Of a DNA stretch of 12,000 nt, positions 90 to 11,194 are shown in pieces. The notes beneath the pieces are model-generated. The model was given only the letters and a program-made list of their open reading frames with translations, was not told the DNA's origin and did no database searches. Position 1 is the stretch's first letter. Every line of letters begins with the position of its first letter. Origin of the DNA: an uncultured Amaricoccus sp. (GTDB lineage: Bacteria > Pseudomonadota > Alphaproteobacteria > Rhodobacterales > Rhodobacteraceae); the NCBI RefSeq assembly GCF_937858865.1, contig NZ_CALLYO010000396.1:1-12000 (forward strand), read 5' to 3'. A program made the translations under genes and the position numbers.

Positions 90-95
90 TGAGGC

Positions 96-105
96 GATAC
101 CAATT
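96..105 (-). promoter_or_regulatory. Left-end transposase binding site L1 (putative)
   Basis: GATACCAATT starts six bases inside the presumed left end. Its reverse complement AATTGGTATC occurs at 187-196 and again at 6057-6066 near the right end. The 13-bp stretch 96-108 is a perfect inverted repeat of 184-196. In Mu the transposase binds several end sites, with L1 next to the cleavage point; I infer that role here from position and recurrence only. Confidence 0.6.
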
Positions 106-129
106 ATTGCGGATCCTATTGCGGATCCT
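106..129 (+). repeat. Two tandem 12-bp repeats next to the left end
   Basis: ATTGCGGATCCT occurs twice head to tail at 106-117 and 118-129. Eleven bases of it recur at 243-253, inside the last codons of the repressor gene. The array abuts the putative L1 site. It could bind the transposase, the repressor or a host factor; no function can be assigned from sequence. Confidence 0.6.
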
Positions 130-186
130 CGCGCGGCCCGGTTTATCGTGCAATTCCAAGTGGTTGACCTCTGGCCGTGATTGAAT

Positions 187-196
187 AATTGGTATC
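187..196 (+). promoter_or_regulatory. Left-end transposase binding site L2 (putative)
   Basis: AATTGGTATC is the exact reverse complement of the L1 motif and is identical to the inner right-end site. It starts 91 bp from L1. In Mu, L1 and L2 are also separated by a long spacer (about 80 bp), which HU bends during transpososome assembly, so the layout agrees with a Mu-type left end. It lies between the left end and the 3' end of the repressor gene. Confidence 0.55.
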
Positions 197-210
197 ACGT
201 TTCGCCAACC

Positions 211-774
211 CTAAGCATTTGATTTCGTTAGAACGGCGGCCGATTGCGGATCCCCTTGACCGCTCTTCAGCCTGTCGAGAATTGCCGCCAATGTGTCCGG
301 CGTAACGCCGCGATCATATGCGCCTTTCGCTTTCTCGATCATGTACAGATGGCCAATATCGTCAACTATCGTCAAGGGGTCGGCGAGCTCTCGGAAGAAA
401 TCTTTGGACTCAAGCGTGGAAATAATATCACGAACGACAGAATGAACCGTCTCCGGCGGGCAAAGTCTCAGTACCCTTATGATCGCCCGCTCGTGCTCGG
501 TTAACCCCGGAAGGCCAGCGATGTCCTCGTTCGATCCGAGGAGGGAAGCAAGCTCGCGAAAGGACCCCGCGTCACCCGACAGAAGGGCGCTTTCGGGGAT
601 CCCAAGCCTCTGACTGATCTGGCGCAGGACTGACGGCTTCGGTTGCGTCCTTCCCGTCTCATAGTTTGCGAGCGCCGATCGGGTGATCCCTACCCTTCGG
701 CTGAAAGCCTCCTGGCTTTCCTCCCCACGCACACGCCGCAGGCGCTCCCCAATTGTGCTGTCTCGTGTTGACAT
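211..774 (-). CDS. XRE-family phage repressor (Mu c-like position)
   Basis: A 187-residue predicted DNA-binding repressor that would hold the transposition genes silent. Residues about 8-62 form a lambda/Cro-type helix-turn-helix domain, with the recognition region around residues 21-41 (QEAFSRRVGI then TRSALANYETG) and the usual downstream NYE/P pattern. The rest (about 70-187) is acidic and helical, has no recognisable enzyme motif and probably mediates oligomerisation. I see no Ser/Lys LexA-type autocleavage signature. It is transcribed toward the left end, divergent from ner and the transposase, as the c gene is in Mu. The start ATG at 772-774 lies inside a three-box operator-like array, so autoregulation is likely. 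Base composition is less GC-rich than the neighbouring genes, as is common for phage regulators. The family call is firm; the role as immunity repressor comes from context. Confidence 0.85.
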   Translation of the reverse strand: MSTRDSTIGERLRRVRGEESQEAFSRRVGITRSALANYETGRTQPKPSVLRQISQRLGIPESALLSGDAGSFRELASLLGSNEDIAGLPGLTEHERAIIRVLRLCPPETVHSVVRDIISTLESKDFFRELADPLTIVDDIGHLYMIEKAKGAYDRGVTPDTLAAILDRLKSGQGDPQSAAVLTKSNA

Positions 775-810
775 GTGCTAGTTTGTGTATAGAGTTGCTG
801 GCTTGTGTAT
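757..810. promoter_or_regulatory. Three-box operator array between repressor and ner (putative)
   Basis: Three related 14-bp boxes begin at 757, 777 and 797, exactly 20 bp apart: GCTGTCTCGTGTTG, GCTAGTTTGTGTAT and GCTGGCTTGTGTAT. Boxes two and three match at 12 of 14 positions; boxes one and three match at 10. The array covers the repressor start codon and the candidate rightward promoter. A 20-bp period is about two helical turns, so proteins on the boxes would lie on the same face of the DNA. I infer binding by the repressor, the Ner-position protein, or both. Confidence 0.6.
768..795 (+). promoter_or_regulatory. Candidate early promoter for ner-A-B
   Basis: A perfect -35 hexamer TTGACA lies at 768-773. 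It is followed after 16 bp by TAGAGT at 790-795, which matches the -10 consensus at four of six bases. Transcription would start near 802, about 30 bases before the small HTH gene. The -35 lies between the first and second operator-like boxes and the -10 between the second and third. No equally good leftward promoter was found; TATACA on the minus strand at 791-786 is a possible -10 without a clear -35. Confidence 0.45.
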
Positions 811-830
811 GCTTGCACGGGACCGGCTCT

Positions 831-1019
831 ATGACAACCGTACTGAAGTCAGCTCGCGAGCGTCTGCGTCGCGAAGGCGTGACGGTCGCCGATTGGGCTA
901 AGCGCAATCGGTTTCCCCTGCATGCGGTCCGAGCGGTGCTCTACGGGCGCAACAAGGGAAACTACGGCCAAGCCCACGGGATCGCGGTGGCGCTCGGGGT
1001 TAAGGACACCGAAAGGTGA
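831..1019 (+). CDS. Small Ner-position HTH regulatory protein
   Basis: A basic protein of 62 residues. The segment around residues 15-58 (VTVADWAKRNRFPLHAVRAV, then GRNKGNYGQAHGIAVALG) reads as a compact helix-turn-helix domain. It occupies the place of ner in Mu, between the divergent repressor and the transposase, where Ner damps early transcription. An in-frame ATG at 753 was rejected as the start. It would lie upstream of the candidate promoter, overlap the repressor gene, and add a Cys-rich stretch that looks noncoding. The ribosome binding site at 831 is weak. The stop overlaps the GTG start of the transposase by four bases, so translation is probably coupled. Naming it Ner is inference from position and size; similarity to Mu Ner itself is not obvious. 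Confidence 0.75.
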   Translation: MTTVLKSARERLRREGVTVADWAKRNRFPLHAVRAVLYGRNKGNYGQAHGIAVALGVKDTER

Positions 1020-2818
1020 GCTTCGTCTCTCCTAAGGAGTTCGCGGAAGCGCTCGGCATTTCCGAGCGCATTGCTAGACGAGCATTCGCCCGGGGGCGTC
1101 CGTGTCATGGCCACGCCCTGCCCGTGATCGAAGTGCCCGGGCAGCGCGGCGGGGCCGGCGGCAAGGTCTGGGCCTTGTCGCTCGACCACTGCTCGCCCGA
1201 GCTGCGCGCGATACTTCAGCCGGCGGCTTCGAGCCCCGTTGAAGTCCCCGTTAAAGGGGGCCTTGCCGCTCCGACCATTCGGCTGAAGGGCCGTTCCGAT
1301 CGGGGACGACGGCGCGTCATCGTCACGCGCGCGTGGGATGCCGGGATTGACCTCCCCGAGGACCGCAAGCGTGCCATTGCCGGCGAGCTGGCGCGCGAAG
1401 CGCGCAGCATGGTCGCGAACGACGGCACGTCCAACCGGGAAGTGCTCCGCCTCTGCGCCTTCCACCTTGCGCGGCGCTGCGAGGCGGCGGGCTCCGCCCT
1501 GGCGCCGGCCCGACTGCGCGCGATCTGCGCCCTCAATCAGAAGTGGGCGAAGCGGCAGGGTCTCAACCGGTTCCGGTTGGTCCACAAGCACGACTGCGAC
1601 CACAAGGCTTGGCAGGACGAGGCCGTGCCGCGCATCCGGCGGGCGCTGCACGACACCCCCATGGGGCTGCTGATCGGCGACGTTCACTATGTGGACATCC
1701 TCGTTGACGAGAACGGCGAGACGGTGCGCGTGCGGCTGATCGCGTGGCTGGACGCTTCGAGCCTCTTCGCCTGGGTGACGCCCGTGTTCCTGTCGAAAGG
1801 CAAGGGCGTCCGGCAGGAGGACGTGGCCGAGGCGCTTTCGCAGGTCGCCTTCTGCCCGCACGGCGGCATCCCGCAGGAGTACTACCTCGACAACGGCTCG
1901 GAGTATTCCAAGCTGAAGTCGGCCATGGACCGACTGGCCGACCTCGCCGGAATGCAGTTCAGCGTCACCGCTGCAAAGCCCTACTCGCCGACCTCCAAGG
2001 GCGAAATCGAGGGCTTCTTCAACATCCTCGAAGGCATCTTCCGCGGCTTGCCCGGGTGGATCGGCGGCGACCGGACCAACAAGAAGACCGAGAACAAGGG
2101 CATGGTCGTGAAGCCTTACGAGCGCGGTCTCGACGCGCTGGCGGCGGATATTCGCGACGCGGTCAGGATCTACAACGACCGGCCGCAGTCCGGCCGGCTC
2201 GGCGGCCTGTCGCCCGTCGAAGCGCTCGACGCGAAGATCAGGGCCACCCGCTTCAGCGCGCGCGTCCCGAGCGACGACGCCTTCGACCTGATCTTCAGCC
2301 GCCCCGAAACACGGATCGCCCGGCAGGGCATGATCACGATCCGCGGCGCGCTCTACCACTCGCCGCGCATGGACGATCTGCCGGTCGGCGCGCGCTTGGA
2401 AGTCCGCGTTCCGCTCCGGAAGGGACGCGACCGCGTCTTCCTGCGCCACGAGAGCGATGATCTTGGCTGGGCCGAGCTGCAACCAGTCTTCGCCCATGGC
2501 GAGCGCGCAGGGGCTCGGCACCAAGCCGAGCTGGAAAAGGGCCGAACCGACGCGCTCGAGCACCTGCGGGCGCAGACCGACCCGACCGTCTCGACCTTCG
2601 AGCTACAGAAGGCCGCGGTGCGGCAGGTCGCGCCGGCCGCCGGCGATCCCGAAGCCTGGACCTTCGCGATCGACAAGACGCTCCTGCCGCCGAGCCCAGC
2701 GGATCGGGCCGAGGCCGAGGATGCCGAGCGGCGGGCCATCATGGAGGAATTCCTCGCGATGAGCGCGAAGAGTGAGAGACCGGCGGCAGCCACCGCCGGC
2801 CTCTCTGGTGCAACGTGA
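1016..2818 (+). CDS. MuA-like DDE transposase
   Basis: A 600-residue transposase, close in size to MuA (663). It would bind the element ends and catalyse strand cleavage and strand transfer. The N-terminus (about 2-30) looks like a helix-turn-helix DNA-binding segment (VSPKEFAEALGISERIARRA). The catalytic core spans about 215-400. The acidic triad is read as D222 (in GDVHYVDI, aligning with the MuA NGDGY aspartate), D292 (in YYLDNGSEY) and E332 (in SPTSKGEIEGFFN). A segment YNDRPQSGRLGGLSPVEAL closes the core, and the Mu-type beta-barrel region follows (about 425-490). The charged C-terminal tail is where MuA contacts MuB. The GTG start at 1016 follows an AAGGA site at 1002-1006 and overlaps the upstream stop. 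No frameshift or missing catalytic residue is visible, so the enzyme is probably active. Confidence 0.93.
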   Translation: MSFVSPKEFAEALGISERIARRAFARGRPCHGHALPVIEVPGQRGGAGGKVWALSLDHCSPELRAILQPAASSPVEVPVKGGLAAPTIRLKGRSDRGRRRVIVTRAWDAGIDLPEDRKRAIAGELAREARSMVANDGTSNREVLRLCAFHLARRCEAAGSALAPARLRAICALNQKWAKRQGLNRFRLVHKHDCDHKAWQDEAVPRIRRALHDTPMGLLIGDVHYVDILVDENGETVRVRLIAWLDASSLFAWVTPVFLSKGKGVRQEDVAEALSQVAFCPHGGIPQEYYLDNGSEYSKLKSAMDRLADLAGMQFSVTAAKPYSPTSKGEIEGFFNILEGIFRGLPGWIGGDRTNKKTENKGMVVKPYERGLDALAADIRDAVRIYNDRPQSGRLGGLSPVEALDAKIRATRFSARVPSDDAFDLIFSRPETRIARQGMITIRGALYHSPRMDDLPVGARLEVRVPLRKGRDRVFLRHESDDLGWAELQPVFAHGERAGARHQAELEKGRTDALEHLRAQTDPTVSTFELQKAAVRQVAPAAGDPEAWTFAIDKTLLPPSPADRAEAEDAERRAIMEEFLAMSAKSERPAAATAGLSGAT

Positions 2819-2838
2819 CCTTTCAGAAGGAGCGTCAC

Positions 2839-3894
2839 ATGGAGAAACCTATCATCGAAACCGGGGTCGCATCAACGATCCGCGCGGCCGCGCGGCAGAT
2901 CGCCGACGGCGCGGGCCTCGGGCTCGCGCGCGGACCGGCCGGCATCGGCAAGAGCTTCGCGCTCGACCTGGTCGCGACCGAGCTGGCAGCGGGCGGCACG
3001 GAAGTCGTGCGCGTCACGGCCTCGCCGGTCATCGGCGGCTCCGCCATCGCCTTCATGCGCGCTGTCCTCGCGCCTTATCGGATCGATGTCAGATCAACCC
3101 CCGACGCCTTCGACGCAATCTGGGAGCTTCTGCGCGGGCATCCGTTCCAGCGCTTCGGCACGCGCGCCGTCTTCATCGTCGACGAGGCGCAGGAGCTGAA
3201 GACCGTCATCCTCGAGACGATCCGCTCGCTCTGGGACCGCGGAACCGACGCGCGCCTCGGCGACGAGCACGCGCCGGCCTTCGGCTGCCTCTTCGTCGGC
3301 AACGACACCTTCATGGGCAAGGGCGGCAACGTCCGCACCGCCGCCTTCCGGCCGCTCCTCTCGCGGGTGACGCACAACATCAACCTGCCGCGCCCCTCGC
3401 GGACAGAGCTCGCCGACTTCGCCAGCTCCCTCGCGCCGGAGAGCGCGGAGCTTCAGGCGATCCTGCGCGACCTCGGCGAGAGCGCCGGTCACTTCCGGGC
3501 GCTGGCGACCGCGATGCGCGTCGCCGGCGGTATGGGCGACGGCCCGATCGGACCGGACCGCCTGCGCGCGGCGATCAAGACGATGGGGGGGGCGGTGATG
3601 GCCGAGATGCTGACGCTCAACGCCTACCTGACAGAGGAGCGGCGGGAGGCCCTTCAAGGGCGGTTCGCCCTCTGCACTCCCTTGAGCGAGGCCGAGCTTC
3701 CCGTGTTCGGTCGCGCCGTGGAGGAGCTGCCGGAGATTGTCGACGCGCTGCGCGCCGAGCTCCCCGAAGCGAGCCCCAAGGTCGCGGAGCTTCTCGACGC
3801 GGCGGCGACCGCGTCGACGATGATCCGGGGCGCTCTCCGCCGGAGCTTCCCCGCCGGAGCTCTCGGCGCGGCCCAGACTGGGAGGGTGCAATGA
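2839..3894 (+). CDS. MuB-like AAA+ transposition ATPase
   Basis: A 351-residue ATPase that in Mu-type systems coats target DNA, delivers target to the transposase and gives target immunity. Walker A is GPAGIGKS at residues 32-39 and Walker B is VFIVDEAQ at 111-118. A sensor-1-like asparagine follows in FVGND (about 152-156), and GHFRAL around 218-223 lies where a sensor-2 region would be. The start ATG at 2839 was chosen because AGAAGGAG at 2825-2832 is well placed. A GTG 24 bases upstream has no such site. The protein is somewhat longer than MuB (312 residues), the extra length being an acidic, alanine-rich C-terminal part. It follows the transposase by 20 bp and overlaps the next small gene by ATGA. 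Related AAA+ proteins include IstB and TnsC, but pairing with a MuA-type transposase favours MuB. Confidence 0.88.
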   Translation: MEKPIIETGVASTIRAAARQIADGAGLGLARGPAGIGKSFALDLVATELAAGGTEVVRVTASPVIGGSAIAFMRAVLAPYRIDVRSTPDAFDAIWELLRGHPFQRFGTRAVFIVDEAQELKTVILETIRSLWDRGTDARLGDEHAPAFGCLFVGNDTFMGKGGNVRTAAFRPLLSRVTHNINLPRPSRTELADFASSLAPESAELQAILRDLGESAGHFRALATAMRVAGGMGDGPIGPDRLRAAIKTMGGAVMAEMLTLNAYLTEERREALQGRFALCTPLSEAELPVFGRAVEELPEIVDALRAELPEASPKVAELLDAAATASTMIRGALRRSFPAGALGAAQTGRVQ

Positions 3895-4055
3895 AGGGGC
3901 GTGTGAAGCTCGCCCTCGAGCTGACCGACGCCGAGTGGAACCAGGTCGACGACGTGATCCCGGAAACCGCCGAGCTGATCAGCGACGCGGCGGGAACCCT
4001 CGATCTGATGGCGGACATGCTCACAGCCGGCGCGGACCTGCACCCGGCGCGCTGA
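3891..4055 (+). CDS. Small early protein, 54 residues, possibly truncated
   Basis: The start ATG overlaps the stop of the MuB-like gene (ATGA at 3891-3894) and has GGAGG at 3881-3885, so a real coupled gene is likely. The protein begins MKGRVKLALELTDAEWNQVD, is strongly acidic overall and predicted helical. I recognise no domain. Tape-measure coding sequence begins in another frame about where this gene ends, so its C-terminus (LTAGADLHPAR) may have been created or clipped by the deletion that joined early and late regions. It may be an early accessory protein of the Mu-like phage; no function can be assigned. Confidence 0.6.
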   Translation: MKGRVKLALELTDAEWNQVDDVIPETAELISDAAGTLDLMADMLTAGADLHPAR

Positions 4056-4087
4056 CGAACCTGATCCAGCGTCAGGGTGGCTACGCG

Positions 4088-5485
4088 ATGTCCGTGGGCC
4101 TGGCGGCCGAGGAAGTCGCGGCCCTCGGCACGGCTTTCCTGTCCTCCAACCTCGGGCCGGAGGTCGCCGCCACTGCGCTGAGGAACTTCACCGGCGCGCT
4201 GGCCAATGGCGAGGCCGCGACCAAACGCCAGTCCGACGTGCTGGGACGGCTCGGCTTCGATACCGTCGACCTTGCCAAGCGAATGCAGATCGACGCGAAG
4301 GGCGCGATCCTCGACGTCGTCGGCGCGTTCGGCCAGCTCGAGGCGCACGAACGCGCCGGCGCGATCAGCATGCTCTTCGGCGAGGAGGCAATCGGCAGCG
4401 TCACGCCCCTCATCGAAAACCTCGGCTTGCTCGAAACCGCCTTCGGGCTGGTCGGGAACAGGGCCGACTATGCCGGTTCGATGACGCGCGAGTATGAGGG
4501 CATCGCTGAGACCACCAAATCCCGCCTGACCGTGCTCACCAACAGCATGACCGCGCTGTCCGTCGTCGCCGGCACCGCACTTCTGCCAGCGTTCGTCGCG
4601 CTGCTCGAGGCAACCACGCCGATGATCCAGTCCTTCAGCGACTTCGCGGCGGCCAACCCCGGGCTGATCCAGTCGGTCGCCGGGCTCGGCGCTGGCCTCT
4701 GGGTTATCCGCGCCGCGATGCTCGCCACCAATGCCGCCATGATGACCAACCCGATCGTCGCCGTCATCGCTGCGGTCGCCGCGGGCGCCTTCATGATCTA
4801 TCGGAATTGGGACGGCATCGTCGCCTACTTCTTGGAGAAGATCGACGCCGTCCAGGCCGCCTTCGACGAGGGCCTGCTCAACGGCGTGCTGACCGCGCTC
4901 GCCGAGTTCGACCCATTCCGCCTGATGTTCGAAGGCGCGGTCAACCTGGTCGAGTACCTGACCGGCTGGGACCTCTCCGCGATCGAGGAGAGGATCGCCG
5001 CCGCCTTCGACTTCAGCCTCTTCGGCGCCGGCATGCGGCTGATCCAGTCGGCCTGGGACGGGATGCTCTCGATCGTCGGGCCGATGGTCAGCTCGATCTC
5101 GGCCAAGATCGCCGCCATCGTGCCGGACTGGCTGCTGCGCGCCTGGGACTGGGTCTCGGGCGGCGGGGCGAGCTCGGCCGAGGGGAGCCCCGCCGGCCGC
5201 GCGATCGGCGGGGCGGTGCGGGCCGGGCATCTCTACCGCTGGATGGAGGAGGGCGAGGAGCTCTTCGTTCCGCGGGTGGACGGCAACGTCATCTCCACCC
5301 GGGAGCTGAAGGCGCTGCGCGCCGGCGGCGCGCGAAGCAGCACGACGACGATCAACAACGACATCGTGGTCCACGCCGCGCCCGGCCAGTCGCCGCAGGA
5401 GATCGCGCGCGAGGTCCTGCGCGCGATCGAACGGCGCGCCGGGCGCGGAGCCGAGCTGCACGACGGTGGGGCCTATGCCGTTTAG
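4088..5485 (+). CDS. Phage tail tape-measure protein, N-terminally truncated remnant
   Basis: The 465-residue product matches the middle and C-terminal part of tape-measure proteins, which set tail length. The start lies inside the conserved repeat-like helical domain: EEVAALGTAFLSS, then AATALRNFTGAL, GEAATKRQSDVLGRLGFD and a FGEEAIGSVTPLI segment at about 97-109. A long hydrophobic stretch follows (about 192-238). The C-terminus is the usual ending, GEELFVP near 389-395 and LHDGGAY at the end. A complete protein would have a few hundred more N-terminal residues. The family-like reading frame can be traced back to about 4056 (LIQRQGGYAM), directly after the small early gene, so the gene was cut by a deletion. 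ATG 4088 has AGGGTGG at 4074-4080 and could still be translated. Without other tail genes it has no virion role; it may be a pseudogene. Confidence 0.8.
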   Translation: MSVGLAAEEVAALGTAFLSSNLGPEVAATALRNFTGALANGEAATKRQSDVLGRLGFDTVDLAKRMQIDAKGAILDVVGAFGQLEAHERAGAISMLFGEEAIGSVTPLIENLGLLETAFGLVGNRADYAGSMTREYEGIAETTKSRLTVLTNSMTALSVVAGTALLPAFVALLEATTPMIQSFSDFAAANPGLIQSVAGLGAGLWVIRAAMLATNAAMMTNPIVAVIAAVAAGAFMIYRNWDGIVAYFLEKIDAVQAAFDEGLLNGVLTALAEFDPFRLMFEGAVNLVEYLTGWDLSAIEERIAAAFDFSLFGAGMRLIQSAWDGMLSIVGPMVSSISAKIAAIVPDWLLRAWDWVSGGGASSAEGSPAGRAIGGAVRAGHLYRWMEEGEELFVPRVDGNVISTRELKALRAGGARSSTTTINNDIVVHAAPGQSPQEIAREVLRAIERRAGRGAELHDGGAYAV

Positions 5486-5648
5486 CGGCTGAAACGAGTT
5501 CGGGAATGGAGAGTGCAGGCTCCGTTCTCGTCCCGGAGCGGGGGTTCGTGAAGGTTGCCCCGTTCCGTCGCCTGCGGGAGGTCCGGCTGTTCGTCGTGGT
5601 CCGGCCGGTCTTCCCGCAGGCACCATCAACGCCTGGAGGACATGACGA
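5486..5648 (+). other. Spacer with an inverted repeat, between tape-measure remnant and last gene
   Basis: The spacer contains a perfect 10-bp inverted repeat, GCCTGCGGGA at 5570-5579 and TCCCGCAGGC at 5612-5621. Its 32-base loop carries GGTCCGGC twice (5580-5587 and 5598-5605). No T-run follows, so it is not a standard terminator. The region may also hold the second deletion joint of the element, since no normal tail gene follows the tape-measure gene. Confidence 0.4.
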
Positions 5649-5652
5649 ATGA
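5506..5652 (+). CDS. Possible 48-residue ORF coupled to the next gene
   Basis: An ATG at 5506 opens 48 codons. The stop TGA at 5650-5652 overlaps the ATG of the next gene (ATGA at 5649-5652). That overlap type is used elsewhere in the element and is the main support. The product (MESAGSVLVPERGF... ending TPGGHDE) is basic, has a short hydrophobic run around LFVVVRPVF, and shows no domain. There is no convincing ribosome binding site, and an inverted repeat lies within it. It could be a joined remnant of a lost gene or simply open noncoding sequence. Confidence 0.25.
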   Translation: MESAGSVLVPERGFVKVAPFRRLREVRLFVVVRPVFPQAPSTPGGHDE

Positions 5653-6023
5653 CCGCCGCGGACATCGACCTCGCCATTGCCGAGCTGGAGCCGATCCTCG
5701 CCGGTTTAACCCGCCTCAAAGGGGCGCTTGAACGGCACCGCGAAGCTCTACTGCAAGATCGGCTGTCAGCCCTGCCGCCCTGCGACGTGCCGCCCACCGA
5801 GCACCGCCGCCTGCACCGCCCCGGCGTGCAGGCCAAGCTCGACGCCGACCCCGAGCTTCAGGCATTCGTCCTCGCCCGCCTCGACCGCCTGACCTTCCAC
5901 AATATTGCCGCGGAGGTCGCTCAATACTTTCCGCCCGAGCGCCGCGTCCGCCACTCTGCCATCCACGCATGGGCTTCCCGCCGCCGGTCCCGCGCCCGGA
6001 TGAGCCCTGACCATCCCGGATAG
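5649..6023 (+). CDS. Small HTH-like phage protein near the right end
   Basis: A 124-residue protein with GGAGGA at 5635-5640, eight bases before its ATG. Residues 1-40 are helical and may form a coiled coil (DLAIAELEPILAGLTRLKGA). The linker at 41-58 is rich in proline and histidine. Residues about 60-112 (LDADPELQAFVLARLDRLTF, then IAAEV and RRVRHSAIHAWASRRR) look like a basic helix-turn-helix. I do not recognise a named family. A regulatory or DNA-binding role is inferred from the motif only. It is the last gene before the right end, 33 bp from the inner end motif. Its retention in a heavily deleted element may mean it helps transposition or control, or only that the deletion stopped short of it. 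Confidence 0.65.
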   Translation: MTAADIDLAIAELEPILAGLTRLKGALERHREALLQDRLSALPPCDVPPTEHRRLHRPGVQAKLDADPELQAFVLARLDRLTFHNIAAEVAQYFPPERRVRHSAIHAWASRRRSRARMSPDHPG

Positions 6024-6056
6024 CCCGCGGACTGCCGATCACTTCCGAGATCCCGC

Positions 6057-6066
6057 AATTGGTATC
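6057..6066 (+). promoter_or_regulatory. Right-end transposase binding site R2 (putative)
   Basis: AATTGGTATC is identical to the inner left-end site and is the exact reverse complement of L1. It is the inner of two right-end copies spaced 20 bp apart. Closely spaced R1 and R2 sites, against a widely spaced L1-L2 pair, is the same asymmetry seen at Mu ends. Confidence 0.6.
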
Positions 6067-6076
6067 ATGGGATAGG

Positions 6077-6086
6077 AATTGGTTAC
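6077..6086 (+). promoter_or_regulatory. Right-end transposase binding site R1 (putative)
   Basis: AATTGGTTAC matches the end motif at eight of ten positions and ends six bases before the presumed right end (CA at 6091-6092), mirroring the distance of L1 from the left end. The differences are two adjacent bases near the outer side of the motif. Confidence 0.55.
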
Positions 6087-6092
6087 ACTACA

Positions 6093-6096
6093 CCAG
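6093..6096. repeat. Putative target-site duplication, right copy
   Basis: CCAG repeats the four bases just left of the element (86-89). The match extends to six bases (CCAGTG) if the first two bases of the left end are counted. Restoring the site without the element would place the left flank directly upstream of the ABC transporter operon. Confidence 0.5.
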
Positions 6097-6239: not shown

Positions 6240-7835
6240 ATGCTCCCCTCCGTCTCCCGACGCACCCTCCTCGGCACCGCCGCCGCGCTCCTCGCCTCGA
6301 CGGCGCTCCCCCGCCTCGCCCGCGCCGCCGAAGGCGGACGGCTCGTCGTCGCCGCCGACAGCGAGCCGCGCCAGCTCAACCCGGCCATCGTCGCCTCGAA
6401 CGGTGTCTTCTTCATCGCCTCGAAGGTCGTCGAGCCGCTCGCCGAGGCCTCCTACGAGGGCGACGGCCTGCGTCCGCTCCTCGCCACCGCCTGGGAGGGC
6501 TCCGACGACGGCCGCACCATCACCTTCACCCTGCGCGAAGGCGTCACCTGGCACGATGGCACCCCCTTCACCTCGGCCGACGTCGCCTTCTCGGCGATGG
6601 AGGTCTGGAAGCCGCTGCAGAACATCGGCCGCAGCCTCTTCGCCGACCTCGAGGCGGTCGACACCCCCGACGATCACACCGCAGTCTTCCGCTTCTCCAA
6701 GCCGACGCCGCTGCAGCTCATCGCCAACGCCCTGCCGGTCGTCTCCTCGGTGCTGCCGAAGCATCTCTACGAAGGCACCGACATCGCCGCCAACCCGGCG
6801 AACGGCGCCCTCGTCGGCACCGGGCCCTTCACCTGGGGCGAGTATCGTCCGGGCGAATACTACCTCCTGAAGAGGAACCCCGCCTACTGGAACGCCGGCG
6901 AGCCGCACCTCGAGGAGATCGTCTTCCGCGTCCTGCCCGACCGCGCCGCCGCGGCGAGCTCGCTCGAGGCCGGCGAGATCCAGCTCGCCGCCTTCTCGGC
7001 GGTGCCGCTGGCCGACCTCGCCCGCATCGCCGGGGTGCCGGGCCTCGAGGTCGTCACCAAGGGCTACGAGGCGCTGACCTACCAGCTCGTCGTCGAGATC
7101 AACCACCGCAACGAGTACCTGCGGAACCTGAAGGTCCGCCAGGCCATCGCCCACGCCATCGACAAGCGCTACGTGCTCGACGCGATCTTCCTCGGCTACG
7201 CCGAGGAAGCGACCGGCCCGGTGCCGAAGAACGCGCCGGCCTTCTACACCGGCGACGTGACCACCTACGGCTTCGACGTCGAGAAGGCCAAGGCGCTCCT
7301 CGACGAGGCCGGCTTCCCGGCCGGGCCGGACGGGGTGCGCTTCCGGCTGAACCTCCTGCCCGCGCCCTATTTCAACGAGACCAGGCAGTTCGGCGACTAC
7401 CTGCGCCAGGCGCTGGCCGCCATCGGCATCGACGCCACCATCGTCGCCAACGACAGCGCCGGCCACCAGAAGGCGGTCTACACCGACCACGCCTTCGACC
7501 TCGCCATCGCGCCGACCGTCTTCCGCGGCGATCCGGCGATCTCGACCACGATCCTCGTCCGTTCCGGCATCCCGGCCGGCGTCCCCTTCTCGAACCAGGG
7601 CGGCTATGTCAGCCCCGCGCTCGACGCCCTGGTCGACGAGGCCCTCGTCACCCTCGACCCGGCGAAGCGGGTCGAGCTCTACGACGAGTTCCAGCGCCTC
7701 GTCACCGCCGACCTGCCGCTCATCAACGTGGCCGACTGGTCCTTCACCTCCGTCGCCTCCGACAAGGTCGAGAACATCGCCACCAACCCGCGCTGGGCGG
7801 TGTCGAACTGGGCGGACGTCGGCCTCGAGGAATGA
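6240..7835 (+). CDS. ABC transporter solute-binding protein, family 5 (peptide type), Tat signal
   Basis: A 531-residue periplasmic binding protein that captures the substrate and delivers it to the permeases. The N-terminus has a twin-arginine signal (SRRTLLG, residues 6-12), a hydrophobic core and an A-R-A cleavage site near residue 29, so the folded protein is probably exported by Tat. Family-5 features follow: a DSEPRQLNP opening, LREGVTWHDGTPFTSADVAF around residues 96-115, a GTGPF motif near 193-197, and VRQAIAHAIDKRYV in the middle. Length is typical for DppA/OppA-like proteins. ATG 6240 was chosen because the signal peptide starts there; upstream in-frame codons back to 6096 add nothing family-like. 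The ribosome binding site is weak. It is first in the operon. Substrate is unknown: peptide, nickel chelate, amine or sugar oligomers all occur in this family. Confidence 0.9.
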   Translation: MLPSVSRRTLLGTAAALLASTALPRLARAAEGGRLVVAADSEPRQLNPAIVASNGVFFIASKVVEPLAEASYEGDGLRPLLATAWEGSDDGRTITFTLREGVTWHDGTPFTSADVAFSAMEVWKPLQNIGRSLFADLEAVDTPDDHTAVFRFSKPTPLQLIANALPVVSSVLPKHLYEGTDIAANPANGALVGTGPFTWGEYRPGEYYLLKRNPAYWNAGEPHLEEIVFRVLPDRAAAASSLEAGEIQLAAFSAVPLADLARIAGVPGLEVVTKGYEALTYQLVVEINHRNEYLRNLKVRQAIAHAIDKRYVLDAIFLGYAEEATGPVPKNAPAFYTGDVTTYGFDVEKAKALLDEAGFPAGPDGVRFRLNLLPAPYFNETRQFGDYLRQALAAIGIDATIVANDSAGHQKAVYTDHAFDLAIAPTVFRGDPAISTTILVRSGIPAGVPFSNQGGYVSPALDALVDEALVTLDPAKRVELYDEFQRLVTADLPLINVADWSFTSVASDKVENIATNPRWAVSNWADVGLEE

Positions 7836-7846
7836 GGCGCCGATAG

Positions 7847-8827
7847 GTGCCGCGCCTCCTGCGCCGGGTTGCCACGCGGCTCCTCGGCAGCATCCCGGTC
7901 CTCGTCATCGTCGTCGTCGGCGTCTTCCTCTTGCTCAACAGCGCCGGCGGCGACGCGGTCGACGCCTACCTCCTCTCGATCGGCGGCGGCGACGCCCAGC
8001 AGGCCGAGGAGCTCCGCATCCGCTTCGGCCTCGACCAGTCGGTGACGGCGCGGCTCGCCCTCACCCTCGCCCAGCTCGCCCGCGGCGACCTCGGCTATTC
8101 CGTTGCGCTGAACCGCCCGATCGGCGCGGTGATCGCCGAGCGCCTGCCCAACACCCTCTGGCTGATGGGCAGCGCCACCGCCCTCTCCTTCGCCCTCGGC
8201 TCCGCCCTCGGCGTCCTCGCCGGCCGCCGCCCCGGCTCGGCCGCCGACCGCCTCCTCTCCGCCGGCTCGCTCTTCCTCTACTCGATCCCGAACTTCTGGC
8301 TCGGCCTCGTCCTCTCCGTCGTCTTCGCCGTCCGCCTGCGCTGGCTACCGGTCTCCGGCATCGAGACCATTGCCTCCGGCAAGACCGGCCTCGCCCGCGC
8401 CGCCGACATCGCCCAGCACCTCGTCCTGCCGGTCTCCGCCCTCGGCATGATCTACCTCGCGCTCTTCCTCCGCGTCATGCGCGCCGGCATGGTCGAGGCC
8501 TGGGGCCAGGACTATACGCTCGCCGCCCGCGCCCGCGGCGTGGCCCCCTGGCGCATCACCCTCAACCACGCCGCCCGCAACGCGCTCCTGCCCCTCGTCA
8601 CCATGCTCGGGCTGCAGGCCGCCTCGATGCTCGGCGGCTCCGTCGTCATCGAGAGCGTCTTCGGCATCCCCGGCTTCGGCCGGCTGGCGCAGGAGGCGGT
8701 CGCCGGCCGCGACGGCCCGCTCCTCATGGGCGTCATCCTGGTCAGCGCCCTCATGGTCGTCGCCGCGAACCTCCTCGTCGACCTCGCCTACGGCGCCCTC
8801 GACCCGCGCGTCGGAGGCCCCCGGTGA
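7847..8827 (+). CDS. ABC transporter permease, DppB/OppB-like
   Basis: A 326-residue inner-membrane permease. The layout fits the family: a first membrane segment at about 13-31, a periplasmic stretch with LRIRFGLDQSV and ARGDLGYSVALNRPI, then further membrane segments near 104-126, 139-162, 191-210, 247-270 and 293-313. The cytoplasmic EAA loop that docks the ATPases lies around 225-250 (LAARARGVAPWRI... then ALLPL). The family ending YGALDPR is present. It starts with GTG at 7847, 11 bp after the binding-protein stop, with GAGG just upstream, and overlaps the next gene by GTGA. It would pair with the next permease to form the channel. Confidence 0.9.
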   Translation: MPRLLRRVATRLLGSIPVLVIVVVGVFLLLNSAGGDAVDAYLLSIGGGDAQQAEELRIRFGLDQSVTARLALTLAQLARGDLGYSVALNRPIGAVIAERLPNTLWLMGSATALSFALGSALGVLAGRRPGSAADRLLSAGSLFLYSIPNFWLGLVLSVVFAVRLRWLPVSGIETIASGKTGLARAADIAQHLVLPVSALGMIYLALFLRVMRAGMVEAWGQDYTLAARARGVAPWRITLNHAARNALLPLVTMLGLQAASMLGGSVVIESVFGIPGFGRLAQEAVAGRDGPLLMGVILVSALMVVAANLLVDLAYGALDPRVGGPR

Positions 8828-9645
8828 TCCGCGAGCTCCTCCGCCGCCCCGAGGCCCTCCTCGGCGGCCTCCTCCTCCTTCTCATCGCCGGCGCCGCCCT
8901 CCTCGCCCCCGTCCTCTCGCCCGGCGACCCGCTCGCCATCGCCGGCCGTCCGCTCGTCCGCCCCTTCACCGACCCGGCCTTCCCGCTCGGCACCGACGGC
9001 CTCGGCCGCGACCTCCTCGCCGGCGTCATCCACGGCGTCCGCACATCGGCCGCCATCGGCCTCGCCGCCGCCCTCGTCGCCGTCCTCGCCGGCATGCTCG
9101 TCGGCACCGCCGCGGGCTTCGCCGGCGGCCTCGTCGACGAGGCGCTGATGCGCGTCGTCGACGCCTTCCAGATCGTCCCGGGCTTCCTGCTCGCGCTCGC
9201 CTTCGTCTCCGTCACCGGCCCCTCGCTCGCCGTCGTCGCCATCGCCATCGCGCTCGGGGCCTGGACCGGCCCGGCGCGGCTCTCCCGCTCGCGCGTCCTC
9301 GCGCTGCGCGAGGCCGACTTCGTCGCCGCCGCCCGCGTCATGGGCATGCACCCGGCCGAGATCGCCCTCCGCCAGGTCATGCCGCTCGCGCTGCCGCCCG
9401 TCCTCGCGGTCACCGCCGTCATCGTCGCCGGCGCCATCCTGACCGAGTCCGCCCTCTCCTTCCTCGGCCTCGGCGACCCCAACGCCGTCACCTGGGGCGG
9501 CATGATCGCCGAGGGCCGCAACCAGCTCCGCTCCGCCGCCTACCTCTCGATCATCCCCGGTATCGCGCTGGTCCTGACCGTCATCTCCATCTACCTCGTC
9601 GGCGAGGCGCTGACCGACGTCCTCGCCGGGAAGCGCCAGTCGTGA
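8824..9645 (+). CDS. ABC transporter permease, DppC/OppC-like
   Basis: A 273-residue inner-membrane permease, the partner of the upstream DppB-like protein. Diagnostic pieces are an N-terminal membrane segment (about 11-31), the PLGTDGLGRDLLA motif (55-67), the EAA loop around 167-192 (FVAAARVMGMHPAEIALRQV), and FLGLGDPN followed by TWGGM (213-227) before the last membrane segment. It is at the short end for the family because the cytoplasmic N-terminus is brief. The start is GTG at 8824, overlapping the previous stop by four bases. An upstream extension in this frame is only the other reading frame of the first permease. Confidence 0.9.
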   Translation: MIRELLRRPEALLGGLLLLLIAGAALLAPVLSPGDPLAIAGRPLVRPFTDPAFPLGTDGLGRDLLAGVIHGVRTSAAIGLAAALVAVLAGMLVGTAAGFAGGLVDEALMRVVDAFQIVPGFLLALAFVSVTGPSLAVVAIAIALGAWTGPARLSRSRVLALREADFVAAARVMGMHPAEIALRQVMPLALPPVLAVTAVIVAGAILTESALSFLGLGDPNAVTWGGMIAEGRNQLRSAAYLSIIPGIALVLTVISIYLVGEALTDVLAGKRQS

Positions 9646-10418
9646 CCTCGCTGGCCACCTGCGACCGCCTCACGGTCCGCTATCCCGGCGCCGCCCGCCC
9701 CGCCCTCGCCGACCTCACCCTCGCGCTCCACGCCGGCGAGAAGCTCGCCGTCGTCGGCGAATCCGGCTCCGGCAAGTCCACCCTCGCCCGCGCCCTCGCC
9801 GGCCTCCTCCCCGTCGGCACCGCGCTCTCCGGCGCGATCCGCTGGTCCGGCCCCCCGCCGCGCCCCGGCCGCGACATCGGCACCGTCTTCCAGGACCCCG
9901 GCGCGAGCCTCGACCCGCTCCTCACCGTCGGCGCCCACCTCGTCGAGGGGCTCCGCGCCCCCCTCCCCCTCGGCCGCGCCGAGGCCCGCGCCCGCGCCGC
10001 CGCGCTCCTCGCCCGCGTCCACATCCCCGACCCCGAGCGGGCGCTCGCCGCCTGGCCGCACCAGTTCTCCGGCGGCCAGGCCCAGCGCATCGCCATCGCG
10101 CTCGCCATCGCCGCCGGCCCGCACCTCCTCGTCGCCGACGAGGCGACCTCGGCCCTCGACGTCCTCGTCCAGGCCGAGATCGTCGCGCTCCTGCGCGAGC
10201 TCTGCCGCGACGCCGGCATGACGCTCCTCTTCATCACCCACGACATCGCGCTCGCCGGCACCCTCGCCGACCGGGTCGCCGTGCTCCACGACGCGCGCCT
10301 GGTCGAGATCGGCCCCGCCGCGCGCCTCCTCGCCGCCCCGCGCGAGCCCTATACCCGCGCCCTCCTCGCCGCCCAGCTCGACCTCGCGAGCCCCCGCCTC
10401 GTCGGGACCCGGCCATGA
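9642..10418 (+). CDS. ABC transporter ATPase, DppD/NikD-like short form
   Basis: A 258-residue cytoplasmic ATPase that would power import. Motifs are complete: Walker A GESGSGKST (39-47), Q-loop Q84 in FQDPGASLDP, signature FSGGQ (142-146), Walker B LLVADEA (162-168), D-loop SALD and H-loop H200 in FITHD. The protein stops soon after REPYTRALLAA, so it lacks most of the C-terminal oligopeptide-type extension of the longer DppD/OppD proteins (over 300 residues). In length it resembles NikD. It starts at GTG 9642 inside a GTGA overlap and ends in an ATGA overlap with the second ATPase. Length alone does not make it a nickel importer. Confidence 0.88.
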   Translation: MTSLATCDRLTVRYPGAARPALADLTLALHAGEKLAVVGESGSGKSTLARALAGLLPVGTALSGAIRWSGPPPRPGRDIGTVFQDPGASLDPLLTVGAHLVEGLRAPLPLGRAEARARAAALLARVHIPDPERALAAWPHQFSGGQAQRIAIALAIAAGPHLLVADEATSALDVLVQAEIVALLRELCRDAGMTLLFITHDIALAGTLADRVAVLHDARLVEIGPAARLLAAPREPYTRALLAAQLDLASPRLVGTRP

Positions 10419-11194
10419 CCCTCCTCGACGCCAGGGGCCTCGCCAAGACCTACCCCGGCGAGCGGCGCATCCGCGCCCTCGACGACGTCTCGCTCTCGAT
10501 CGCGGCCGGCGAGACCCTCGGCCTCATCGGCCCCTCCGGCTGCGGCAAGTCGACGCTGGCCCGCGTCCTCGCCCGCCTCGCCACCCCCGACGCCGGCTCG
10601 GTGCGCCTCGACGGCCTCGACTGGCTCGCCCTCTCCGGCGCCGGCCTGCGCCACGCCCGCCGCCGCCTGCAGATGGTTTTCCAGGACCCGGCCGCCGCCT
10701 TCCACCCCCGCGCCACCGCCGGCGGCGCCGTCGCTGACGCGCTGCGCATCCACCGCCTCGTCCCCCGCCGCGACCGGCCCGAGGCGGCGGCGGCGCTGCT
10801 CCGCCAGGTCGGCCTCTCCCCCGACCTCGCCCGCCGCCCGGTCGCCACCCTCTCCGGCGGCCAGCGCCAGCGGGTCGCCATCGCCCGCGCCATCGCCCCC
10901 CGCCCGCGGCTCCTCGTCCTCGACGAGGCGGTCTCCGCCCTCGACGCCTCGGTCCGCGCCCGCGTCCTCGACCTGCTCGTCCGGCTCCAGGCCGAGCTCG
11001 GCCTCGCCTATCTCTTCATCGGCCACGACCTCGCGGTGGTGCGCGCCGTCTCCCACCGCATCGCGGTGATGGACGCGGGGCAGATCATCGAGACCGGCCC
11101 CGCCGAGGCGCTCCTCTCCGACCCCGGGAGCCCGCTCCTCCGCCGGCTGATCGCCGCCGTGCCCGCGCTCCACCGCAAGGATCCTCCCGTGTGA
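10415..11194 (+). CDS. ABC transporter ATPase, DppF/NikE-like short form
   Basis: A 259-residue second ATPase, expected to pair with the upstream one as a heterodimer. Motifs are Walker A GPSGCGKST (39-47), Q-loop Q90 in MVFQDP, signature LSGGQ (146-150), Walker B LLVLDEA (166-172), SALD D-loop, and H-loop H204. The residue before that histidine is glycine (FIGHD) where serine is usual, a mild change not expected to abolish activity. Like its partner it has only a brief C-terminal tail. ATG 10415 overlaps the previous stop (ATGA) and the stop overlaps the aminotransferase start (GTGA). Confidence 0.88.
   Translation: MTLLDARGLAKTYPGERRIRALDDVSLSIAAGETLGLIGPSGCGKSTLARVLARLATPDAGSVRLDGLDWLALSGAGLRHARRRLQMVFQDPAAAFHPRATAGGAVADALRIHRLVPRRDRPEAAAALLRQVGLSPDLARRPVATLSGGQRQRVAIARAIAPRPRLLVLDEAVSALDASVRARVLDLLVRLQAELGLAYLFIGHDLAVVRAVSHRIAVMDAGQIIETGPAEALLSDPGSPLLRRLIAAVPALHRKDPPV

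Follow-up and report, generated by a model that had tools for sequence, protein, structure and literature searches.

The window analysed here is the whole of a 12,000-base contig (NZ_CALLYO010000396.1) from the 651-contig draft genome of an uncultured Amaricoccus sp. (Rhodobacteraceae), and between positions 90 and 6092 it carries a Mu-like element. It belongs to a family of compact Mu-like elements, of which it is a decayed and probably inactive copy that has suffered internal deletions. With a probability of roughly 0.55, we read the family as transposing phage satellites that have head genes of their own and borrow the packaging motor, portal, tail and lysis functions from Mu-like phages, the window copy being a decayed derivative. 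The original prediction, made from the window alone, had described a natural mini-Mu with a complete transposition module that may be self-controlled; this did not hold for the window copy, in which the A and B genes are damaged and two internal joints are found.

The window copy and its damage

The borders of the element were placed at a TG at 90 and a CA at 6092, with the 4-bp target duplication CCAG on both sides (86-89 and 6093-6096); 85 bases of the contig precede the left duplication. Termini of the same TG...CA kind with 4-bp or 5-bp duplications were found in 15 other elements of the family, so the window borders are not due to chance, and the earlier claim that both ends are present stands. 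The left end (90-200, plus strand) contains GATACCAATT at 96-105 and, further inside, AATTGGTATC at 187-196; the right end (6057-6092, plus strand) contains AATTGGTATC at 6057-6066 and AATTGGTTAC at 6077-6086. The left-end sequences GATACCAATT and AATTGGTATC are candidate transposase sites, which the enzyme may bind.

The regulatory and transposition genes that had been predicted are also present. A helix-turn-helix (HTH) repressor in the position of Mu c (211-774, minus strand; PF12844 HTH_19, E 7.6e-13) is followed on the plus strand by a 62-residue DNA-binding protein in the Ner position (831-1019; phrog_925, E 2e-18), a 600-residue MuA-like transposase (1016-2818; phrog_310) and a MuB-like AAA ATPase that extends into the next frame (2839-3894; PF13401, phrog_296). 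Thereafter come a fragment of 54 residues (3891-4055, plus), the C-terminal part of a tape-measure gene (4044-5485, plus; phrog_28, PF10145) and ORF7, a family-specific frame of 124 residues recognised by alignment (5649-6023, plus), which adjoins the right end and is HTH-like in some relatives. Neither the major capsid gene T nor the protease/scaffold gene I was found in the window element, nor were terminase, portal, tail or lysis genes; library scans of the window proteins gave no integrase, the MuA-type transposase and the target duplications being found there instead.

The claim that these genes show no visible disruption failed when they were compared with homologues. The window MuA frame is open and its DDE positions are kept; aligned with the A proteins of L007, L008, L009, L034, L052, L055, L114, Mu and RcapMu, however, it is missing a block of about 65 residues that in all nine follows the N-terminal part and precedes the catalytic core, where we place the end-binding helix-turn-helix of Mu A. 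The window MuB extends by about 100 residues through a run of G into the next frame, whereas the four relatives compared (L007, L008, L052 and L055) all stop earlier.

The two joints lie downstream of B. The first, near 4044, is where homology to G010, a genome of the same genus, starts (85% nucleotide identity over the tape-measure gene); it cuts a small frame and leads into the tape measure close to residue 196 (numbering of the 686-residue G010 gene), so that roughly the last 490 residues are kept in a frame open from 3935. The small frame weakly resembles the one that separates B from GemA in L116 (E 0.004) and L034 (E 0.033), and the fragment at 3891-4055 is, to judge from these matches, probably the start of that gene. 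The second joint is found after the tape-measure stop and before ORF7 (5486-5648, plus strand), where G010 carries I. Because G010 has T, tape measure and I in a row, the tape-measure remnant of the window and its loss of T and I are explained by deletion. The ratio of nonsynonymous to synonymous substitution (dN/dS) between the window and G010 was 0.46 for the tape measure (476 codons) and 0.37 for the homologous part of ORF7 (91 codons); comparisons among other relatives gave lower values for T, I and ORF7 (0.11-0.28). For the tape measure there is no such pair of relatives, and the difference no more than hints at relaxed constraint.

The search for further copies that had been suggested gave one copy in the window's own draft genome and the whole element in 0 of 100 other relatives; the same-genus genomes G010 and G003 match parts of it, including the right end at other sites. 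A solitary copy with an impaired transposase had been named beforehand as an outcome that would refute the original prediction, and for the window copy this is largely what was found. With A, B and the middle of the element damaged, the window copy would be mobile at most in trans. A search for an empty site, in which the window flanks, singly and joined, were compared with the two best same-genus loci, gave nothing usable and was uninformative because intergenic DNA is not conserved.

It could be argued that both internal joints are assembly errors and that the true element is a complete member with T, tape measure and I, given a 651-contig draft, a single copy and a contig end only 85 bases to the left of the duplication. 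We judge this highly improbable, as it must account for three separate changes (the missing A block and the two joints), and similar deletion derivatives of the same family are found elsewhere, i.e., L032, which has both ends with CGCGC, and L127, which has undergone deletion and over 1.4 kb shares 97.5% identity with the intact L126 of its genome. The latter pair indicates that deletions like those of the window copy arise elsewhere too.

Compact relatives in the Rhodobacterales

The original prediction called for comparison with the closest full-length Mu-like prophage; the nearest relatives are instead compact Mu-like elements of Rhodobacterales, whose A, B, ORF7 and ends are matched by those of the window. 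The MuA search matched 11 of 295 genomes of the host family (the window's own included) and, in addition, three named loci, L007 from Cypionkella, L008 from the isolate Pseudotabrizicola algicola ETT8, and L009; Cypionkella and Pseudotabrizicola belong to the Paracoccaceae of the Rhodobacterales. No relative of the window MuA was found in the viral contigs or phages searched. The elements are common, the marker ORF7 being matched by its profile in 32 of 394 genomes of the host family sampled at about one per genus; 3 of 385 genomes of the class were matched, of which one is the window's own and two are weak. Searches of 50,697 phage records and 72,556 plasmid records with ORF7 of L052 gave no match.

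Comparison with Mu, RcapMu, RS1 and among the members themselves gave a gene plan common to the loci: repressor, Ner, A, B, small frames, GemA, often an HTH or decoration gene, T (major capsid protein, PF10124), I (protease/scaffold, PF10123), often a Mor/C-type late activator (phrog_836, found in many members), ORF7 and the right end. Some members also carry a neck protein (PF05069) or a decoration protein (phrog_1731). The earlier statement that nearly all late genes are gone is misleading in that the nearest relatives are themselves compact, with T and I and without motor or portal; nor was a lysis gene found in the family.

Among 21 loci checked for gene integrity, A, B, T, I and ORF7 each lie in one open frame in 12 (L007, L008, L052, L055, L112, L114, L115, L116, L117, L120, L122 and L126). 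At least one of the five genes is defective in L034, L107, L109, L121 and L136; L030, L105 and L106 lie on short contigs, and L118 has neither T nor I. Many further ORF7 loci are fragments or deleted copies (e.g., L032, L053, L124, L127 and L128). Several genomes have more than one copy: G437 (L108, L109 and L110, with L108 and L110 sharing long stretches at 97-100% identity that are partly inserted DNA), G371, and G116, where ten ORF7 matches are mostly decayed. The G010 element is split between contigs, with T, tape measure, I and a transposase-like frame on C99 and ORF7 with the right end on C21. In L008, adjacent proteins of 258 and 217 residues that look alike by eye lie at 16319-17745, between the late activator and ORF7; they are not found in L007.

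Head genes set the family apart from full-length phages

T precedes I in all 21 compact loci compared, whereas I precedes T in each of the nine full-length loci in which both were found (14 examined), and neither TerL nor a portal gene was found in any of the 21. A tree of 34 T proteins has a weakly supported branch with the 21 compact ones on one side and the 13 full-length ones on the other. T and I are under purifying selection (dN/dS between relatives of 0.14-0.23 for T and 0.11-0.28 for I). Lengths of 7951 to 9585 bp were measured for the 12 insertion-free elements that carry T and I and whose ends were mapped, namely nine of the twelve intact ones together with L034, L107 and L136.

These data bear upon whether full-length Mu-like prophages decayed repeatedly and independently to give the members of the family, the window copy among them. 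Deletion of the window copy itself and the number of decayed copies in the family (L032, L053, L124, L127 and L128) agree with such an origin, which is nonetheless improbable in our estimate: it is at odds with the consistent and reversed order of T and I, with the placement of the compact T proteins on one side of a branch, and with the narrow size range and intact genes of twelve elements. A full-length relative with the A, B and ORF7 of the window was found in no search made. On gene order, selection, size and the T tree, we rejected simple decay of a full-length phage as the origin of the family, and deletion was kept as the account of the window copy. The original preference for a phage-derived transposon or satellite over simple decay fits a compact transposing family spread over many genera; it does not fit the window copy, which has decayed.

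The structural genes that recur are those that set the size of the virion, namely T, I and sometimes a tape measure. Compact I proteins are shorter, at 301-325 residues in seven compact elements versus 335-370 in five full-length ones (the lengths depend on start codons chosen by hand), and the part missing belongs to the second half, before a PDPxxYVPV stretch; in Mu, the product of the second half of gene I is the scaffold protein. The T protein of G010, where a full-length tape measure stands between T and I, groups with the compact T proteins. L118 (genome G414) is a 6.7-kb member with CCGGC duplications in which a 627-residue tape measure is the only structural gene found. The tape measures are of different families (PF06791 in L118 versus PF10145); those of RcapMu and RS1 have 1027 and 1231 residues.

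A proposed satellite that brings its own head

The family consists of mobile elements without a complete virion gene set, one of the properties by which a satellite is recognised, another being packaging in particles with the help of a second phage. We propose that repressor and Ner would keep an intact element silent, and that A and B, acting on its own ends, would insert it and make copies by transposition. The late genes would then be switched on by a Mor/C-type activator, and T with the short protease/scaffold I would build the element's own, probably small, head, joined in some members by a tape measure, neck or decoration protein. Terminase, portal, tail and lysis proteins would be supplied by a Mu-like siphophage in the same cell. 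As simple arithmetic, if head volume is proportional to the T number raised to 1.5, the load of a T=3 head would be 0.28 times that of a T=7 head, or about 11 kb for a 40-kb phage; such a capacity would fit an element of 8-9.6 kb together with host DNA. The narrower proposal, that this is an old and separate satellite lineage carrying only the genes for virion size and taking all else from Mu-like siphophages, with deleted copies as its passive derivatives, stands in our view at even odds.

We examined if genomes with a compact element also carry a possible helper. A search with Portal_Mu, which replaced one for the RcapMu TerL, found a Mu-type portal in 9 of the 32 ORF7 genomes versus 4.06 expected (p 0.012, by a statistic that ignores kinship). 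For the 15 genomes listed with T and I, a group that includes some with gene defects on the integrity check, the portal was found in 6 versus 1.9 expected (p 0.006, kinship again ignored). In P. algicola ETT8, a compact element occurs together with a Mu-like prophage that carries portal, terminase and tail genes, their contigs being equal in length. Portal matches were seen in 4 of 11 hosts searched separately, two of them partial (G003 and G323) and two in the positive genomes G052 and G171. The RcapMu-type TerL was found in 0 of 11 genomes, in a search that had no positive control and was blind to the divergent TerL of the ETT8 prophage.

Several results weigh against satellites that borrow from a helper. 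Twenty-three of the 32 ORF7 genomes, the window's own among them, have no Mu-type portal, so that the helper would often be absent as a prophage; and among IMG/VR contigs only two short ones matched ORF7. Spread in virions, use of a helper and small heads are what we infer for the family. The branch that separates all 21 compact T proteins is weakly supported (65/24; the value is 82/96 for 19 of the 21). A packaging role for ORF7 is likewise unsupported by any library searched. With regard to ORF7 itself, a weak HTH_32 match was given by Pfam for 4 of 10 members and a weak match to "head-tail connector" by PHROGs for 1 of 10 (E 0.004); the idea that it is a small terminase subunit gained no support, as Pfam gave only weak HTH matches and the PDB none.

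The elements might instead be plain phage-derived transposons that move only within genomes by means of A and B, with T, I and the tape measures left over or serving some cellular role. Their own A, B, repressor and ends suffice for transposition, decayed and multi-copy examples are many, and packaging genes were not found. We regard this as unlikely, though worth keeping in mind: the order of T and I and purifying selection upon them have been kept across many genera, along with late activators, whereas leftovers should be the first to be lost. Another use for the head genes would be to poison the heads of an invading Mu-like phage, making of each element a defence island that happens to transpose. 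Satellites often interfere with their helpers through capsid proteins (PMC6893505; PMC6092414); here, the protease/scaffold is complete and is accompanied by a late activator and sometimes by neck and decoration genes, which has the look of a working head module, and we consider a defensive role very improbable. Satellites with their own heads remain our preferred reading of the family.

Ends, target duplications and flanking genes

Both ends and the duplication could be assigned in 16 of 21 loci, and were not assigned for L115, L116, L117, L121 and L053. The accepted pair of ends ranked first in 10 of the 16 and second to fifth in L055, L109, L112, L118, L136 and L032, where the lower-ranked pairs were chosen by the terminal motif of the family. 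The ends of L007 and L008 were first recognised as the break in homology between two insertions. Phage Mu makes a 5-bp target duplication. In the family, the duplication is 4 bp in six elements with the A type of the window (the window, L007, L008, L052, L055 and L114) and 5 bp in ten with another A type (L034, L107, L112, L120, L122, L126, L118, L136, L109 and L032). These two clearly different A types accompany the same late module, which suggests that the transposition module has been exchanged within the compact family.

A conserved non-coding block with TTCCG lies just inside the right end of the window element (6010-6056, plus strand). Over the 110 bases next to the right end, TTCCG was found in 13 of 16 elements (2.4 expected), and at the left end in 1 of 16; the elements are related, so these counts are not independent. 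The block accompanies either A type, and CTTCCGG or CCGGAAG also occurs at the deposited ends of RcapMu and vB_ThpS-P1. It could be a packaging or helper site, or a site for ORF7.

To the right of the element, positions 6240-11194 hold an ABC transporter operon whose first gene encodes a family-5 solute-binding protein (PF00496); by eye, the remainder encodes two permeases and two ATPases, and an aminotransferase-like frame begins at 11191.

Comparison with known systems

The family resembles RcapMu, RS1 and phage Mu in A, B, GemA, T, I, the late activator and transposition with a short duplication. RcapMu and RS1, which are siphophages (PMC10783043), differ from it in that they are 38-40 kb long, have terminase, portal, tail and lysis genes, and carry I before T. 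The nearest precedent for helper use is PmCI172, a PICI of Pasteurella multocida with a Mu-like helper, a homologue of a capsid protein and small heads (PMC6092414; PMC6893505). It is likewise small, and no MuA or MuB is mentioned in the passages of that report describing it (PMC6092414). PmCI172 shows that a Mu-like helper can serve a small element that encodes a capsid homologue, and that small heads can result. AH14b of Pseudomonas, a small prophage for which packaging by a larger prophage has been suggested, is P4-like; it differs from the compact elements in having a P4-like integrase and primase and no structural genes (PMC4936722).

The satellite families named in the consulted portion of a 2024 review are P4, PICI, cfPICI, PLE, PICMI, VEIMEs and tycheposons, and a Mu-type transposing family is missing among them (PMC11389934). 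No transposing or Mu-type satellite was found in the open-licence literature, subscription papers and preprints lying outside that scope. If our reading is correct, the elements would represent a new way to parasitise phages, in which the parasite transposes, brings its own capsid and scaffold and borrows the rest, and they could carry host DNA from many sites. Control of head and tail size by scaffold and tape measure could then be tested in natural variants that have T and I, T with tape measure and I, or a tape measure only.

The capsid-forming PICIs (cfPICI) are satellites with their own head genes that take the tail from a phage; they are integrase-based and have their own packaging genes, whereas the compact elements use a MuA-type transposase for insertion, and neither a terminase nor a portal was found in them. 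The laboratory mini-Mu, which is engineered, likewise has Mu-type ends, A, B and few other genes; the natural compact elements, unlike it, have kept a repressor, an activator and head genes, and have a T lineage of their own.
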